Positions 29,213-37,718 of a stretch of DNA of 64,000 nt are shown here, one piece after another; position 1 is the first letter of the stretch, and each line of letters begins with the position of its first letter. A program made the position numbers and the translations under genes. The DNA lies in NCBI GenBank assembly GCA_027488755.1, contig JAIYAZ010000135.1, positions 54,028 through 118,027 on the forward strand. The letters run 5' to 3'. Source of the stretch: Verrucomicrobiaceae bacterium. GTDB lineage: Bacteria > Verrucomicrobiota > Verrucomicrobiia > Chthoniobacterales > JAATET01. The notes beneath the pieces are model-generated. The model was given only the letters and a program-made list of their open reading frames with translations. It was not told where the DNA came from and searched no databases.

Positions 29213-29287
29213 CGGGGGGTGCCCGGGTTTCCTGAAAGCGCGGCTTGCGCCGGGGGCGCGGCGGCTTACACTACGCCGGTCTTGAAC

Positions 29288-30037
29288 ATGGGCAGCAAAT
29301 TCCTTCTCGGCGGTGTCGGCCTGGCCGGCTTTGCCCCTTCCGCCTGGGCGCAGGCGGCTCCCGTCCCCGGGCTCGGCGGTCACCTTGACCTCTGGCATTT
29401 TGTGCAGGCCGGCGGCTGGGTGATGATTCCGCTGGCGTTGCTGTCGGTGATCGCGCTGATGCTGATCGTGATCTACCTCTTCACGCTGCGCCGCGGGGCC
29501 GTGGTGAGCGGACGTTACATGACCACCGCGGACGCGCTGCTGCGCAAGGGCGATTATTACGGTCTCCTTGCGGTCTCGAACCGCCACGGCGAGGCGGTGG
29601 CGCGCATCCTCCGCCGCACGCTGGATTTCCTCATCAAAAACCCGAAGGCCACCCTGGCCGAGGCGCGCGAAATCGCGGAGACCGAGGGCACGCGGCAGGC
29701 CTCCGCCATGCAGCAGCAGATTGTGTATCTGGCCGACATCGGCAACATCGCGCCGATGGTCGGGCTTTTCGGCACGGTGGTCGGCATGATCAAGGCGTTC
29801 GCCGTCGTGGCGGCCGATATGTCGGTGAAGAATCCCAGCATGCTCGCCGCGGGGGTTTCCGAGGCGCTGGTCGCCACGGCGGGCGGTTTGCTCGTGGGCA
29901 TCCCCGCGATGGCCGCCTACGCCTACTTCCGGGGTCGCACGCAGCGGCTCGTGTCCGAAATGGAAGCCGCGACCACGCAGCTCATCGCGCAGCTTGGGGT
30001 GCATTACAAACCCGGGGCCTTTCGCCCCCCGGAGTAG
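29288..30037 (+). CDS. MotA/TolQ/ExbB proton-channel family protein
   Basis: GGWVMIPLALLSVIALMLIVIYLF; NIAPMVGLFGTVVGMIKAF; ATAGGLLVGIPAMAAYAYF. Confidence 0.9.
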   Translation: MGSKFLLGGVGLAGFAPSAWAQAAPVPGLGGHLDLWHFVQAGGWVMIPLALLSVIALMLIVIYLFTLRRGAVVSGRYMTTADALLRKGDYYGLLAVSNRHGEAVARILRRTLDFLIKNPKATLAEAREIAETEGTRQASAMQQQIVYLADIGNIAPMVGLFGTVVGMIKAFAVVAADMSVKNPSMLAAGVSEALVATAGGLLVGIPAMAAYAYFRGRTQRLVSEMEAATTQLIAQLGVHYKPGAFRPPE

Positions 30038-30083
30038 CCTCCGGGCCTCCCGTCCCCCGCCCGCGGTGCCGCTCGCCCCATCC

Positions 30084-32699
30084 ATGAGGATTCTTTTTGT
30101 TTCCGCGCTCGCGTTGGCCATCCCGTCGCTGGTCTCCGCCCAGGAGGTGCGCCGCGCCCTGCCCGCCAACGCTCCGGACGGCACGCCCCCGCCGGTGCGC
30201 CGCGCGGAGGCGGTGACGCCCGAGACCTACGAAAATCCCGCGTGGATGGAGCGCGTTCGCCCCGCCCAGCCCGTGCCGGTCCAACGAGCTGAGCCCGTGG
30301 CGACACCGATTCCCGTGGCCACGCCGATCCCGGTGGCGACGCCGATTCCGGTGGCGACGCCAATCCCGCTGGCCCCCGAGCCGACCGCGGAGCCCGCCGC
30401 TGCGCCGGGCGCGGAGGCGACGCCGGATCCCGTGGACGTTCCCGCGCCCGCGGAGGCCGTGCCGAGCCAGAGCCGGGCGCTCACGGCGGCCAACGGCTTC
30501 TTCCGCCGCCGCATGTATGACATGGCGGTTTACGAATACGAAAAATTCCTCATCGCCGAGCCGAATGCGTCCGGGCGCGACGCGGCGTTGTTCCGCCTCG
30601 GGGAAAGTCATCGCTTTCTCGGCAACGAGCGGGCGGCCCGCGAAGCCTACCAGCGCCTGCTGCTGGAGGCGCGGGAGGGCGAGTTTGCGGGCGCGGGCGC
30701 GTATCGCCTCGGCGAGATTCTTTACACCGAGGGCAAATACGCGGAGGCCGCCGATCTTTTCGACCGGGCCGAAGCGAACGCCCGTGAGGATGCGGTGAAG
30801 CTCAGCGCCGCCTTCTTCCAGGCGAGCGCCTACGAACGGCTCAACCGGCGCGCCCAGGCCGCCGAGAAGTATCGCGCGATCCTGAAGTTCCCCGGCGAGA
30901 ATCCCTACCGCGAGTCGGCCCTGTTTTTCCTCGCCGAGGAGGATGCCCGCAACGGACGGAAGGCCGAGGCCTTTGCGGCCTACGAGACGCTGGCCACCAC
31001 CTCGCCCAAGCCGGAGGTGAAGGTCGAGGCCGCGGTGAAGGCCGCGGCGCTGGCCTCGGAGCTCGGCCGCAATGACCGCGCGCGCGCCCTCTTCGAGCAG
31101 GTGATCTCCTCGCCCGACGCCGGAAGCTGGAGCGGTGTGGCCTGGCTCGGCGTGATGCGGTTGGCCTACGAAAGCGGGCGTTACCAGGAGGCGATCGACG
31201 CCGCCGACAAGGGCATGGCGAAACTGCCGCGCGACGCCGCGCCGGAGGCGATCCTGATCGTGGCGAATTCCCGCCGCCAGCTCGGCCAGACCGAAAAGGC
31301 ACTGGCGTTCTACGATCAGATTCTCCGCGAGCATCCCGGCACTGACGCGGCGCGGCAGGCGCAGTTTCAGCGCCTCGTGTGCCTTGAGGCCACCGGCGCA
31401 AAGGACCTGCCCGCGCAGCTCGACGAATTTTTGAAGGTCAGCACCGACCCCGTGCAGCGGGCGCAGGCCACGCTGCTAAAGGCGGAGACGCTCTTCAAGG
31501 CGGGCGACTACGCCGGCGCCGCTCCGCTTTATCAGGGCGTGATCCGCTCGCCGCTGCCGGCGCGGCTGCGCACGGCCGCGCGTTACAAGCTCGGCTGGTG
31601 CCAGCTCCAGCTTGGGCAGGCGACCGATGCCGCGCAGACCTTCACGCTTTTCATCGACCAGAATCCGAAGAGCGAGTTGCTCCCGGCGGCGATCACCCAG
31701 CGGGCGCTCGCGATGCAGCAGGCGAAGGCCTACGAGGCGGCGTTGCGGGACTTCGACCGCGTGATCGCGGATTTTCCCAAGGCGAAGGAGCGGGAGATTG
31801 CGCTGCTGCAGCGGGCGCTCGTCCTGGGTCAACTCGAGCGCTACGACGACATGGCGAAGACGTTCGCGCAGCTGCTTGCGGAGTATCCGAAGAGCCGGGC
31901 GGCGGCGCAGGCCGAGTATTGGCTGGGCTGGCAGGCGTTCGAGAAGAAGGACTACGCGGGCGCGATCACGCACCTCACGCGGGCGCGGGAGCTTGATGCG
32001 AAGACCTTCGGCGACCGCGCAGCGCTGCGCATCGTGCTGGCGCACTACTACGCGGGGAACCGCGAGGCCGTGGCCGCGGAGGCGGCGAAGGCCGATCTCG
32101 CCACGCTCCCGGCGGAGGTGCTGGCCTGGCTGGGGACGCAGTTTTACGACGCGGGGGATTACGCCCGCGCCGAGAAGTTTCTTCTCCCGATCGTCGCGCG
32201 GGGCAGCACCGGCAACGGCAGCCCCGATGTGCTGCTAGCGCTGGCGCGGGCCCAGCTGGCGCAGGAGAAGTTCGAGGCGGCGCGCGATCCCATCCGCCAG
32301 TATCTCACCGCGGCGCGGGACCCGCTGAGCCGCGCGAAGGGCCTGCTGGCCTCGGCCGAGGTTTCGCTCGGCACGGGGAATTACGAGGACGCCAACAAGC
32401 TCGTCGAGGAGGCAATGCTCCTCCAGCCCGAGGGCACGGTGAACGCCGAGGCGCGCCTGCTCGGCGGCGAGGTCCAGATGCAGCGCGGCGACTACGCCGG
32501 GGCGGCCCGGGCGTTCATGACGATTTCCGTGCTCCACGACGATCCGAAGATCACGCCGCGGGCCCTCACGCGCGCCGCGGCCGCCTACCGCCGGGCGGGG
32601 GACGCCGCGGCTGCCAATCGTGCCTTGGCGGAGCGCGACCAGCGTTACCCCGCGGGGGCGGCGGCCTCGCCGAGCCCGAAACCCGCCCGCGACGAATGA
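30084..32699 (+). CDS. Large secreted TPR protein (872 aa)
   Basis: Signal peptide, VATPIP repeat linker, many TPR units. Confidence 0.88.
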   Translation: MRILFVSALALAIPSLVSAQEVRRALPANAPDGTPPPVRRAEAVTPETYENPAWMERVRPAQPVPVQRAEPVATPIPVATPIPVATPIPVATPIPLAPEPTAEPAAAPGAEATPDPVDVPAPAEAVPSQSRALTAANGFFRRRMYDMAVYEYEKFLIAEPNASGRDAALFRLGESHRFLGNERAAREAYQRLLLEAREGEFAGAGAYRLGEILYTEGKYAEAADLFDRAEANAREDAVKLSAAFFQASAYERLNRRAQAAEKYRAILKFPGENPYRESALFFLAEEDARNGRKAEAFAAYETLATTSPKPEVKVEAAVKAAALASELGRNDRARALFEQVISSPDAGSWSGVAWLGVMRLAYESGRYQEAIDAADKGMAKLPRDAAPEAILIVANSRRQLGQTEKALAFYDQILREHPGTDAARQAQFQRLVCLEATGAKDLPAQLDEFLKVSTDPVQRAQATLLKAETLFKAGDYAGAAPLYQGVIRSPLPARLRTAARYKLGWCQLQLGQATDAAQTFTLFIDQNPKSELLPAAITQRALAMQQAKAYEAALRDFDRVIADFPKAKEREIALLQRALVLGQLERYDDMAKTFAQLLAEYPKSRAAAQAEYWLGWQAFEKKDYAGAITHLTRARELDAKTFGDRAALRIVLAHYYAGNREAVAAEAAKADLATLPAEVLAWLGTQFYDAGDYARAEKFLLPIVARGSTGNGSPDVLLALARAQLAQEKFEAARDPIRQYLTAARDPLSRAKGLLASAEVSLGTGNYEDANKLVEEAMLLQPEGTVNAEARLLGGEVQMQRGDYAGAARAFMTISVLHDDPKITPRALTRAAAAYRRAGDAAAANRALAERDQRYPAGAAASPSPKPARDE
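30297..30368 (+). repeat. 18-bp tandem repeat x4 encoding VATPIP
   Basis: Four consecutive units GTGGCGACRCCGATTCCS; seen as VATPIPVATPIPVATPIPVATPIP. Confidence 0.97.
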
Positions 32700-33844
32700 C
32701 GCCGGAACCCTCCGCCCCCAGCGCCGGGATGCGCAGCCTGCTGCGGTTCCTGGGTTTTGTCGGCCTGGCCGTGCTGGCGGTGGGGATTTTTTATTTCGCC
32801 CGCCGCGATGGGGCACGCGACGCCATCAAGCAGGGCGGGGCGGCGGTGGCGGGGCGTCTGCCGGGGCTGGCGGCGCTGGATGCCGAGGTCACCGCGCTGG
32901 TCGATCAGGTCGTGCCTTCGGTGGTGAGCATTTCGGCCCGCATGGACAATCCCGCCATGGAACGCATGCGCCAGATTCGGCGCCTGCTGGGTCTCGGTGA
33001 AAACGGCGAGCCCGACGCCGGGGACGAAAAGCCGGAACTCGGCTCGGGGGCGATCGTTTCGGCCGAGGGGCACATCCTGACGAACTTCCACGTGATCGCC
33101 CGCGCGAACCGCGTGGACGTGCGGATGAGCGACGGCCGGGTGATGCCGGCGCGGTTTCTCGGCGCGGACCAGCAGGCGGACATCGCCGTGCTGAAGATCG
33201 AGGCGGCCGGATTGAAGCCGCTGACGTTTGCGGACTCAAACGCCGTGCGCGTGGGCCAGGTGGTTTTTGCGGTAGGCAACCCGCTGGGGCTCGAGGAGAC
33301 GGTCACGCAGGGCATCATCAGCGGCAAGGGACGGCGCGCGGTGAGCGGGCAGGCGACGGAATTTTTCCAGACCGACGCGGCGATCAATCCGGGTAACTCC
33401 GGCGGGCCGCTGATCAACGTGCGCGGCCAGATCGTGGGCATCAACAACGCCGTGCTGCTCGGAAGTTCGGGCATCAGTTTTGCCATTCCGGCTAACGTGG
33501 CGCAGCGCGTTTATGACGATGTGGTCAAGCGCGGGCGCATTTCGCGGCCGTGGTTTGGGGCGAACACGTGGCCGTTGAACGCGCAGATTGCCGCGGAGCT
33601 CAACCTGGGCACGGACACGGGAAATCTTGTCGTTTCCGTGGTGCCGAATTCGCCGGCGGCTCGCGCCGGCATCCTGGCGGGGGACGTGCTGCAGGAGTTT
33701 GACGGGCGTCCCGTGCGGGATTCCGTCGACATCATCAACCGGCTTTCCGAACTCAAGGAAGGCGACCGCGTGGCCGTCACGCTCTGGCGCGCGGGCGCGG
33801 TGCGGCGGGTCAACGTGACCGTGGAGGGGCAGCCGTGGCGCTGA
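32696..33844 (+). CDS. HtrA/Deg-type serine protease with PDZ domain
   Basis: GHILTNFHVIA (His), ADIAVLKI (Asp), NPGNSGGPL (Ser), C-terminal PDZ; N-terminal TM. Confidence 0.94.
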   Translation: MTPEPSAPSAGMRSLLRFLGFVGLAVLAVGIFYFARRDGARDAIKQGGAAVAGRLPGLAALDAEVTALVDQVVPSVVSISARMDNPAMERMRQIRRLLGLGENGEPDAGDEKPELGSGAIVSAEGHILTNFHVIARANRVDVRMSDGRVMPARFLGADQQADIAVLKIEAAGLKPLTFADSNAVRVGQVVFAVGNPLGLEETVTQGIISGKGRRAVSGQATEFFQTDAAINPGNSGGPLINVRGQIVGINNAVLLGSSGISFAIPANVAQRVYDDVVKRGRISRPWFGANTWPLNAQIAAELNLGTDTGNLVVSVVPNSPAARAGILAGDVLQEFDGRPVRDSVDIINRLSELKEGDRVAVTLWRAGAVRRVNVTVEGQPWR

Positions 33845-33898
33845 TGCCGCGGCGTTGCGGGTTTGACAGAAACAGGCGACGGTTCTAACCAATCCTCG

Positions 33899-34894
33899 AT
33901 GGCCCCCACCGCCACCCCCCCGAATCTGCGCCCGCCGGCCGAGCGGACCTTTGTTGTTGCCGCGATTGTGCTAGGTGCCTTCGCGCTCGTGCAGGTCATC
34001 GCTGCGGTGCTCGTGCTCGCGGCCAAGCTCGATCTCGATGAAATCGGCCGCCGGCTCGCGGCGCGGAATGCCGCCGCGCCGGCCGCCCCCGCCGCCCCGG
34101 TCGCGCCCGATGCCGCCAGCGCGCAAAAGGCGAACTCGCTCATGGCGGAGGCCGACGAGTTTCGCGCCAAGGGAAATTTCCGCGGGGCGCTCGAGGCCGT
34201 GACCGAGGCCGACCGCCTTGTTCCCAACCGGCCGGGCATTCTTCTCCAGATGGCCTCCGATCAGGCCTCGCTCGGCGCGACGGCCGAGGCGACCGCGCTG
34301 CTCAAGCGGATTGTCGCCCTGCCTGCTCCGGCCGATCCCGCCGAGGCCGGCTTCGTGGCGCAGGCGCGGGCGGCCCTCGCGCAGATCAGCAACGCGGACG
34401 CTCCGCCCACGACGGCGGATGCCCCGCCGACGGTCACGCCCGACAAGGCGGGGGCCGGCGTGCGCGACGAGGTCGGGATTCCGATTGGTTCCGTCATGGG
34501 CATCGTGAGCGTGCAGCTCGTCGAGCCGAAGCCGGGGCAGAAGAGCCTGCGCGTGGCGACGAAGGCCTCGACGGAGGAGAAGATCGATCCGATGAAATTT
34601 TCGGCCACGGTCGATTTCTACGAGCAGGACGACTCCGGGCAGATTCAGCACGCGGACGCCCGGCAGACGGAATGGATGTCCCGCCCGGTGAACTGGGCCA
34701 AGGGTGAGCCGGAGCTTTTCCAGACCGCCTACCAGCCGCCCGCGGCCGACCGGGGCGATCTTCCGCCGGTCCAGTATCACGGCTACGTGGTGGCGATTTA
34801 TTACAACGGCGAGCTGCAGGATTCCCGCGCGGAGCCGGTTTCGCTGCTGGAGCAGTTTCCGCCGCCTTTGACCAAGAGCGCCGTTTCGGAATGA
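33899..34894 (+). CDS. Membrane-anchored TPR-like protein
   Basis: TM helix FVVAAIVLGAFALVQVIAAVLVLAA followed by AMAEADEFRAKGNFRGALEAVTEADRL-like repeat region. Confidence 0.65.
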   Translation: MAPTATPPNLRPPAERTFVVAAIVLGAFALVQVIAAVLVLAAKLDLDEIGRRLAARNAAAPAAPAAPVAPDAASAQKANSLMAEADEFRAKGNFRGALEAVTEADRLVPNRPGILLQMASDQASLGATAEATALLKRIVALPAPADPAEAGFVAQARAALAQISNADAPPTTADAPPTVTPDKAGAGVRDEVGIPIGSVMGIVSVQLVEPKPGQKSLRVATKASTEEKIDPMKFSATVDFYEQDDSGQIQHADARQTEWMSRPVNWAKGEPELFQTAYQPPAADRGDLPPVQYHGYVVAIYYNGELQDSRAEPVSLLEQFPPPLTKSAVSE

Positions 34895-36801
34895 AGATCC
34901 TCCTCGTTGACGGCGACCTTCCGGCCGCGCAGCGATTGGGGACCGCGCTGGTGGAGGCGGGATGGGGCGAAGTGGTGGCGGTTGGTTCGGCCGGGGAGGC
35001 CGTTGACCACGTCAATCGCGAGGGCGCCGTCGACGCGCTCGTTACGCAGGTTTCCCTGCCCGACCTCGATGGGTTTGCGCTGGTCGAGGCCATGCAGCCG
35101 CATCTGCCCGGGCTGCGCGTGGTGTATCTCGCGGATGGCGAAGACGTGCCGGCCGGTCAATGGCCCGTGCTGCGGAATCCCGCCGACGGTGGTGCCCTGG
35201 CGGCGGCCCTCGCGGGGCTTTTCCCGGCGGAGGATCCCCTGGTGGGAACCACGCTCGGGGAGTATTGGATCGATGCCCGCGCGGGCGAGGATTCCCACGG
35301 GGCCTATTACGCCGCGGTGCAAACCGCGATCAACCGTCCCGTCGAACTCCACGTGCTTTTCCCGGAGCGGACCGCGGATCCCGCGGCCGGGCCGGGATTC
35401 CTCGCGGCGGCGCGGGCCAAGGCGCGCGTGCACAATCCCGCGGTGCTTTCGGTGTTCGAGGCCGGCGAAATCGGGGGCTGGTATTTCTACACCTCGGAAC
35501 CGCGCGAGGGTTCGTCGCTGGCCGAACTCGCGGCGCAGGGGAGCAGCCTGCCGGCGGCGGCTCTGCTGCAGATTCTCCACGTCGTGGCGGAGACGATGGT
35601 GCAGCTTGGCCAGTCCCGCATCGCGCACGAGCCGCTGTCCGCTCACCACGTGATGATCGACGGCCGCCGGCGCGCGCGGCTGGTGAACATTGCGACCGAC
35701 GCTGCCGCGCCGGATGCCTTTCGCGAGGAAATGCGCCGCCTCGCGGTTGCGGTGGAGGCCCTGGCCCCTGCGGACCCGTCCTCGGGCGCGCTTCGCCGGT
35801 TGCTGGGATTGATGCGGGCCGACGCGCTGACCGTGCGCTCGTGGACCGCGCTGATTTACGAGGTCAAGCGCTGCCAGGGCAGCGAGGGCGCGGAGGCCAC
35901 CTACCGGATGGACGCGAGCGGGGAGGCTGCGCTTGAGGGCGTGCGCCGCGAGCGGCGGCGGGCCCGGATTTTGCGCGGCCTCGGCTGGGCGGCGTTGGGC
36001 GTGGGCGGGTTGGCCGCCGCGGGCTGGGCGGCGTGGTTTTTTAGCGGCGGCGGCCACGCGAATCCCGCGCTTGAGCGGATGGTGGCGATCCCCGCCACCG
36101 TGGTGGTGCGGCCAGGCTCGGGCAGCGAGAGCGTCCCGCCGTTTTGGATCGACCAATACGAGGTCTCCATCGGGCAGTATGCGGATTTCCTCGCGTGGAC
36201 GCAGCGGCATCCCGGCACGGCCCGAAGCCTTCTGCCGGAGGGGACGCCGGAGAATCATTCCTTCGTGCCGGCCGGATGGGCGCCGGGGAAATCCGCGGAC
36301 GGGGAGACGCCGGGGTATTTCGCCGTCGCGAAGGCGGGCGGATCCTACGAGGGGTCGCCGCTTTCGCTGGACGCGCCCGTGTTTGGCGTCGACTGGCCCT
36401 CGGCCTACGCCTACGCGCTCTGGAAGGACCGGCGCCTGCCCTCCGACCTGGAGTGGGAGGTGGCGGCCTCGGGCGGGCTCGGTCGCAAGTATCCGTGGGG
36501 CGCCGAAGCCCGGCCCGGCGCGGCGCATCTCGCGGGTAATGCCGCGTTGCCGAAGTGGGCTCCGGTCAACGCCACGACCGAGGACCACACGCCGGAGGGC
36601 GTGATCGGCCTCGGGGGCAACGTCTCGGAATGGACCTCTTCGCTGGTCGGCACCACGGCGAGCGCGCGTCCGATTGTGCGCGGCGGGAACTGGTCGGATC
36701 GCGAACTCGACCTTCCGCGCCGCATGCTCGAGCTTGACCTTACGCAATCTTCCCCCACCGTCGGATTCCGCACCGCTTCGTCCCAGCCACCCGCCCCATG
36801 A
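34891..36801 (+). CDS. Receiver-like / Ser-Thr pseudokinase-like / TM / FGE-sulfatase fusion protein
   Basis: N-term MKILLVDGDLPAAQRLGTAL...VSLPDLDGFALVEAM; kinase-like VGTTLGEYWIDARAGEDSHGAYYAA...; TM; C-term RLPSDLEWEVAASGG...GNVSEW...RGGNW...VGFRTA. Confidence 0.8.
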   Translation: MKILLVDGDLPAAQRLGTALVEAGWGEVVAVGSAGEAVDHVNREGAVDALVTQVSLPDLDGFALVEAMQPHLPGLRVVYLADGEDVPAGQWPVLRNPADGGALAAALAGLFPAEDPLVGTTLGEYWIDARAGEDSHGAYYAAVQTAINRPVELHVLFPERTADPAAGPGFLAAARAKARVHNPAVLSVFEAGEIGGWYFYTSEPREGSSLAELAAQGSSLPAAALLQILHVVAETMVQLGQSRIAHEPLSAHHVMIDGRRRARLVNIATDAAAPDAFREEMRRLAVAVEALAPADPSSGALRRLLGLMRADALTVRSWTALIYEVKRCQGSEGAEATYRMDASGEAALEGVRRERRRARILRGLGWAALGVGGLAAAGWAAWFFSGGGHANPALERMVAIPATVVVRPGSGSESVPPFWIDQYEVSIGQYADFLAWTQRHPGTARSLLPEGTPENHSFVPAGWAPGKSADGETPGYFAVAKAGGSYEGSPLSLDAPVFGVDWPSAYAYALWKDRRLPSDLEWEVAASGGLGRKYPWGAEARPGAAHLAGNAALPKWAPVNATTEDHTPEGVIGLGGNVSEWTSSLVGTTASARPIVRGGNWSDRELDLPRRMLELDLTQSSPTVGFRTASSQPPAP

Positions 36802-37718
36802 TTCCCTTCCGTCCGTCCCGCCCGCTGCTGTTCCTTTGCCTCGGGTTTGCTTTGCTGGCCGCCGCGCCCGTCGCCTGGGCGCAGGTGCGGGTGGACCTGG
36901 CTCTGCGGCGTTCGCTCTTCGTGCGCTACGAGCCGGTGATCGCCACGGTGACGGTCACGAACCTCAGCGGCCGCGACCTGGAGTTGCGCGACGACGGCAA
37001 CCACAAATGGTTCAGCTTTAACATTGAGAGTGCCACGGGCGCGCTCGTGCCGCCGTATCACGTCGATTATTCGCTCGAGCCGCTGACGATTGGCGTCGGT
37101 GAAAGCATCAGCCGCGTGGTGAACATCACGCCGCTCTACCCGATTTCGGAGTCTGGCACCATCTACCGTCTGCGCGCCGTGATCTACGACGCGACGGTCG
37201 GCCGGTATTTCAGCTCGAATCCGCCGCTCAACGTCGAAATCACCGAGGGTCGCATGCTCTGGCAGCAGATTGTGGGCGTGCCCGGCGCGAATGGACAGGC
37301 CGGCTCGCGCACGATCACGCTGCTCTCGCACCGCCTGCCCGACCAGACGCAGCTCTACATCCGCATTGAGGACAAGGAGAACGGCCTCGTCTTTTGCACG
37401 GCCCAGCTTGGGCGCGTCATCACCTTCAACAAGCCGCAGGTGGAGCTCGACGCGAACAACGACATTTACATCCTCCAGAACACCTCGCCGAAAACCTTCC
37501 TCTTCACGAAGGTCAGCCTCGACGGAAAAATCCTGGAGCGGAAGGACTACGCCTCCACGCAGCAGAGCCGCCCGGCGCTCGTGCGCGGGCCCTCGGGGCA
37601 GCCGGAGGTCACGGGCGGGCTGTATCTCGATCCGGCCGCGGTGGCGGCGGAGAAGGCTGCGCCGAAGCCGCCGTCGGTTTCGGATCGCCCGGTGCCGCTT
37701 CCGAAGGCGAAACCCTGA
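36798..37718 (+). CDS. Secreted hypothetical protein
   Basis: Signal peptide FALLAAAPVAWAQ; ATGA overlap with the previous gene. Confidence 0.7.
   Translation: MIPFRPSRPLLFLCLGFALLAAAPVAWAQVRVDLALRRSLFVRYEPVIATVTVTNLSGRDLELRDDGNHKWFSFNIESATGALVPPYHVDYSLEPLTIGVGESISRVVNITPLYPISESGTIYRLRAVIYDATVGRYFSSNPPLNVEITEGRMLWQQIVGVPGANGQAGSRTITLLSHRLPDQTQLYIRIEDKENGLVFCTAQLGRVITFNKPQVELDANNDIYILQNTSPKTFLFTKVSLDGKILERKDYASTQQSRPALVRGPSGQPEVTGGLYLDPAAVAAEKAAPKPPSVSDRPVPLPKAKP

Follow-up and report, generated by a model that had tools for sequence, protein, structure and literature searches.

Within the 64,000-nucleotide stretch of Verrucomicrobiaceae DNA analyzed here (the window), positions 29219-37718 hold a run of genes in one direction encoding an ExbB-family channel, a large TPR protein, an HtrA protease, a membrane TPR protein, a multidomain protein referred to below as the scaffold, and a secreted protein. 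The features, with the domains of the scaffold listed separately, are as follows.

29219..30037, + strand: MotA/TolQ/ExbB-family proton channel, first of the co-directional envelope genes
29994..32699, + strand: large signal-peptide TPR protein; likely start at about 30084; 4-nt overlap with htrA
32696..33844, + strand: HtrA/DegP-like S1C protease (trypsin-like and PDZ domains), same operon
33863..34894, + strand: membrane TPR protein with an N-terminal TM helix (about aa 35-53), TPR region and C-terminal domain; its stop overlaps the scaffold start by 4 nt
34891..36801, + strand: receiver–pseudokinase–TM–FGE-like protein, the scaffold, 636 aa (Pfam, ortholog profile, AlphaFold2 model, Foldseek)
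34891..35226, + strand: degenerate receiver domain, aa 1-112; DGD, Q53, no Lys (Pfam, AlphaFold2 topology, ortholog motif table)
35239..35925, + strand: pseudokinase domain, aa 117-345; retains the N-lobe and the beginning of the C-lobe but has no activation segment (ortholog profile, Pfam extent, Foldseek)
35977..36042, + strand: predicted TM helix, about aa 363-384, with a basic flank on the N side (AlphaFold2 helix 369-384, ortholog hydropathy)
36073..36786, + strand: FGE/SUMF1-like domain, aa 395-632; no Cys (Pfam, ortholog profile, Cys comparison)
36798..37718, + strand: secreted protein with a signal peptide and predicted beta-rich domains; its start overlaps the scaffold stop by 4 nt

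The scaffold gene is an intact, ATG-initiated ORF in which all strings quoted in a first-pass annotation, made from the sequence alone, were present. It is joined to both neighbors, the membrane TPR gene and the secreted protein gene, by 4-nt ATGA overlaps. That annotation had proposed translation together with the HtrA and TPR neighbors, which is supported by the overlap with the TPR gene and by the presence of HtrA in the same operon. For the membrane TPR gene, the first start codon is TTG at 33863; translation could alternatively begin at the in-frame ATG near 33899.

Domain composition of the scaffold protein

An AlphaFold2 model of the 636-aa protein (mean pLDDT 72.9, pTM 0.42, shallow alignment of 11 rows) comprises a receiver-like domain of alternating fold, an N-lobe of kinase type that includes helices C and E, a helical segment spanning residues 369-384 and an FGE-like domain; the relative placement of the domains in this model is unreliable, and the structure alignments were shallow. 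Pfam Response_reg (PF00072) matched the N-terminal domain at E = 1.2e-6, with 29.1 bits against a cut-off of 30.2. The receiver fold is present: Response_reg was matched in 43 of 53 orthologs, and the model displays alternating beta/alpha topology with pLDDT of about 80-87 over residues 1-80. The phosphorylation residues are altered in the window protein, with Q53 at the acceptor Asp position, as the first-pass annotation had read, DGD in place of DDE, VTQVSL in place of (T)DV, and RNP in place of xKP.

For the kinase-like region, Pfam on the window protein alone returned sub-threshold kinase matches only. A phmmer search against solved structures matched PknE over residues 117-281 (3.2e-5), and a profile of 53 orthologs matched StkP (7e-25), along with PknA, PknE and PknB. 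Pfam Pkinase (PF00069) was detected in 32 of the 53 orthologs, and the top-ranked Foldseek matches of the AlphaFold2 model included PknB, PknI, PknA and the Rv3910 pseudokinase (kinase-fold matches at E of about 1e-10 to 4e-12, PknB 3.7e-12; TM up to 0.65 when normalised by target length). The StkP profile match and the Foldseek matches to PknB, PknI and Rv3910 rule out the absence of a kinase fold. The catalytic residues are gone from this fold, which makes the domain a pseudokinase: the Gly loop is lost, the VAIK Lys is H154, the HRD Asp is P248 (HRD reads HEP), the Asn of DLKPxN is H253, and the DFG Asp is N266, in agreement with the losses listed in the first reading.

The same decay runs through the orthologs. 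Among 95 aligned rows, a few of which lack the kinase or receiver part, the catalytic HRD Asp is present in two (the close relatives L083 and L118, without the rest of the motif) and the DFG Asp in two (L114 and the kinase-less L115). Asn occupies the DFG Asp position in 89 of the 95 rows, within the motif R-L-x-N-[LI]-A, and Asn266, Arg263 and Ala268 are nearly invariant. Only about 50 residues separate N266 from W318 (47-57 in most members), and in every kinase-bearing member that was scanned singly the Pfam Pkinase match stops at about model position 140 of 263, indicating loss of the activation segment and of most of the C-lobe. The kinase is dead family-wide, and the simplest reading is that it had lost activity before the family diversified.

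A different explanation is that the pseudokinase domain has been repurposed and still catalyses a reaction or binds nucleotide, with the conserved Asn in the R-L-x-N-[LI]-A motif taking part. The near-invariance of this Asn, with Arg263 and Ala268, despite the loss of the canonical residues speaks for it, and the VAIK Lys is kept in 20 of 95 rows, that of L074 included, and a glycine-rich loop in several orthologs, so that nucleotide binding is possible in those lineages. The window protein, however, has no Gly loop, Lys, HRD Asp or metal-binding residues, and the VAIK state changed at least seven times on a maximum-likelihood tree inferred from the sequence outside the receiver, unlike what is expected of a catalytic residue. 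We consider a repurposed kinase unlikely.

The predicted TM helix is weakly hydrophobic in the window protein (best Kyte-Doolittle 19-mer 1.36); in the orthologs the median is 2.31, and the value exceeds 1.6 in 89 of 93. The helix is preceded by RRERRRAR, which fits an N-in/C-out orientation. The proposal of a membrane-spanning pseudokinase displaying its C-terminal domain to the outside is supported by the ortholog hydropathy and the basic N-side flank, and the FGE-like domain probably lies outside the cytoplasm.

Pfam FGE-sulfatase matched this domain at 1.7e-28, assigning it to the FGE/SUMF1 fold, and its best solved-structure match with the 53-ortholog profile was SUMF2 (5.6e-39). Its earlier description as complete-looking does not hold, since the family as a whole lacks the catalytic Cys pair: the window domain contains 0 Cys, the pair of human FGE has no counterpart in the alignment, and the RGG..GFR segment of 92 orthologs carries no Cys in 78, one in 11 and two in three. 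SUMF2, a eukaryotic protein not known to be fused to signalling domains, likewise lacks this pair at the positions aligned with FGE, and the domain resembles SUMF2 more closely than FGE. It could instead be an enzyme of another kind, with EgtB/SenA-like or other SUMF1-fold chemistry, as the models of EgtB and SenA both align to the FGE region with E-values of about 1e-12. Their scores of 45.8 and 45.3 bits are, however, about a tenth of the NCBIfam cut-offs (360 and 420, respectively), which rejects membership in either family; the match covers the shared SUMF1 fold only, and the best solved structure is SUMF2. Such an enzymatic role seems improbable.

From these features we infer that the product of 34891-36801 is a membrane-spanning protein, with the receiver and dead kinase inside the cell and a non-catalytic FGE-like domain outside. 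A search of the open-access literature found no description of the receiver/pseudokinase/TM/FGE-like architecture, and curated libraries returned no specific family at cut-off for the scaffold, the membrane TPR protein or the secreted protein.

Orthologs and repeated change of the receiver

A protein search of 213 genomes from the order gave matches at E<=1e-12 in 106, the lowest-scoring of which are partial or domain-only; the usual count is one full-length ortholog per genome. Among named relatives, the closest is a Terrimicrobiaceae MAG (L001, same contig as G002), which is full length with 53-55% identity. Full-length relatives also occur in other orders of the class, where orthology is based on sequence similarity and synteny, including genome G322, which we identify as the A. 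muciniphila ATCC BAA-835 type strain.

The architecture varies across these relatives. L074 and L078 encode receiver–DUF4388–pseudokinase–FGE, members of family f8 DUF4388–FGE, L113 DUF4388–pseudokinase without FGE, and Akkermansiaceae pseudokinase–FGE; a Methylacidiphilum relative (L002) has FGE and, judged by eye, a degenerate receiver-like stretch, with no kinase. DUF4388 is found in the cytoplasmic module of L074, L078, L110, L112, L113 and L115, and in f8 it replaces the receiver and pseudokinase. The genome search also revealed an in-frame TAG within two f10 orthologs, L109 and L116 (G094, G098).

The phosphorylation residues are all intact in 31 of the 68 orthologs with a readable receiver, and the fully canonical receivers include that of a congener of the same architecture (L001/L013). 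Over all 95 aligned rows, the acceptor position is D in 37, E in 25 and Q in three, and its state changed at least 10 times on the maximum-likelihood tree, a quick tree computed with the receiver left out, on which changes cannot be polarised. Within the window's genus, L013 keeps everything, L014 is partly decayed (DDE kept, Q53), and L015 has kept the acceptor Asp and lost the FGE domain. Receiver decay is local and not a family trait. The first-pass annotation had called the protein triple-degenerate and phosphorylation-independent: the loss of receiver and kinase residues stands for the window protein, whereas neither label extends to the family, given the canonical receivers. Orthologs of the same architecture with intact catalytic residues were thus found for the receiver, while the kinase is dead throughout. 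Sequence comparison suggests, as the simplest reading, that the receiver has been decoupled repeatedly across the family. Orthologs in Akkermansiaceae lack it altogether, so it is not essential to the core function.

Two further observations concern single positions and genes. The 25 orthologs with Glu at receiver position 53 belong to several separate clades, and this Glu is a possible built-in phospho-mimic. In L015 (G003, 1501-2721), the congener's ortholog ends just past the TM helix, with the FGE domain cleanly absent and the next gene intact; the rest of the protein is nevertheless kept, so that this congener, at least, can do without the outer domain.

The degeneracy of the window copy could also be devoid of functional meaning, the gene being on its way to a pseudogene. 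Identity to the nearest full-length congener is 46% in the receiver, lower than in the pseudokinase (54%) and the FGE domain (61%), and both the at least 10 changes of the receiver Asp and the loss of the FGE domain in L015 could be read in the same direction. Against this, the 636-aa ORF is intact with 4-nt overlaps on both sides, the FGE domain and pseudokinase are well conserved, and conserved orthologs throughout the class have a kinase that is just as dead. Decay is very unlikely, and the pseudogene was set aside on the intact ORF, the overlaps and the conservation.

Conservation of the gene cassette

The membrane TPR–scaffold–secreted protein cassette was present in nearly all order-level loci examined, both partner genes lying next to the ortholog wherever the contig extends far enough. 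The exact 4-nt overlap of the TPR stop with the scaffold start, found in the window, recurs in 17 of 20 order-level loci with both ends comparable. A locus was counted only if the stop of the TPR gene itself coincided with the scaffold start codon; Met-Lys/Arg alone yields ATGA, and an ATGA start motif is therefore not by itself evidence of overlap. At the class level, the TPR gene lies beside the scaffold in 19 of 20 loci, including G322, and 10 of the 20 have the secreted gene. No histidine kinase was present among the neighbors identified. For the secreted protein at 36798-37718, profile searches gave no recognisable family, the only resemblances being weak ones to arrestin and to bacterial Ig-like domains, and a fold search with its model (pLDDT 68.6) returned only low-TM beta-sandwich matches, the best being Spo0M (TM 0.28). 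The cassette is conserved across many Verrucomicrobiota and apparently undescribed.

HtrA genes are a less regular neighbor. They adjoin the cassette in nine order-level loci (families f1, f7 and f10), and in the three g47 (Akkermansia) loci examined two HtrA-like genes adjoin it on the other strand; both arrangements would suit a scaffold for quality control or stress that is linked to the neighboring HtrA protease, as opposed to a general envelope complex. In the remaining order-level loci that were searched, no HtrA was detected next to the cassette, and we regard such a dedicated link as improbable. In the locus taken as A. muciniphila BAA-835 (L156:8410-10190, - strand), the two HtrA-like genes are adjacent and overlapping (339 and 254 aa) and convergent to the cassette.

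Comparison with known systems and proposed role

In M. tuberculosis, the dead kinase domain of MviN/Rv3910 is described as a regulated docking site for FhaA (Gee et al. 2012, as cited in PMC3601408 and PMC11898655). MviN is membrane-bound, and its cytoplasmic kinase domain, which is catalytically dead, serves as a docking platform, as proposed here for the window protein. The AlphaFold2 model of the window protein matched 3uqc, 3otv and 3oun in Foldseek; the matches to the Rv3910 pseudokinase include its FhaA complex. In contrast to MviN, which is fused to a multi-TM lipid II flippase, the window protein has one predicted TM helix, a C-terminal FGE-like domain, a receiver in front and a deleted activation segment.

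On the outer side, the type IX secretion ring lipoprotein PorK/GldK shares a SUMF1-fold domain with a structural envelope role (PorK 3e-26 with the 53-ortholog profile; GldK model 1e-11 against the window protein), but it is a lipoprotein with no cytoplasmic part. Membership in PorK/GldK was rejected, at 44.8 bits against the NCBIfam TIGR03525 cut-off of 350. Ser/Thr kinase–FGE fusions of Anaerolineae/Chloroflexi (L004-L006, L008) also combine a kinase, a linker with a TM segment and a C-terminal FGE/SUMF1 domain; unlike the scaffold, they keep the VAIK Lys, HRD and DFG, lack a receiver and have a long low-complexity linker. Among Ser/Thr kinase-like proteins of the PVC group, Chlamydia encodes Pkn1, with a possible FGE part, and Pkn5. 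The latter is a pseudokinase (PMC5177608). Pkn5 is a secreted effector and Pkn1 is reported as active and cytoplasmic, both unlike the window scaffold. MviN/Rv3910 for the inside and SUMF2/PorK for the outside serve as working analogues, with the scaffold belonging to neither.

We hypothesize that the window protein is a non-enzymatic transmembrane adaptor that works with translationally coupled partners in an envelope complex, here as a constitutive scaffold (probability about 0.6). The cytoplasmic half, consisting of the receiver, sometimes DUF4388, and the dead pseudokinase, would act as a docking and conformational platform. The single TM helix would link this platform to the periplasmic SUMF2-like domain, which, without the FGE active site, would be a binding module. 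Together with the membrane-anchored TPR protein and, in many lineages, the secreted beta-rich protein, the scaffold would form an envelope complex, a physical association suggested by gene order and coupling. In members with an intact receiver, phosphorylation would probably gate the complex; in the window species, the loss of phosphorylation input would leave a constitutive scaffold.

More tentatively, the family as a whole may be a previously undescribed Verrucomicrobiota transmembrane signalling module in which receiver phosphorylation, acting via a dead pseudokinase, controls a periplasmic complex of SUMF2-like domain, TPR protein and beta-protein. Such a module would couple two-component input to a structural, non-transcriptional output on the far side of the inner membrane, with the input cut or fixed in some lineages, such as the window species and Akkermansia; we regard this extension as possible though doubtful.

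To our knowledge, few bacterial pseudokinases are well supported with conserved partners. A pseudokinase that died early and was kept across many species, with a replacement motif and fixed neighbors, would serve as a natural test case for the role of a kinase fold after the loss of catalysis. The receiver, intact in some members, Glu-substituted in others and absent in Akkermansiaceae, would similarly offer a natural experiment on unhooking phosphorylation from output, and an ortholog lies within a well-studied type strain, that of the gut bacterium A. muciniphila BAA-835, as identified here.
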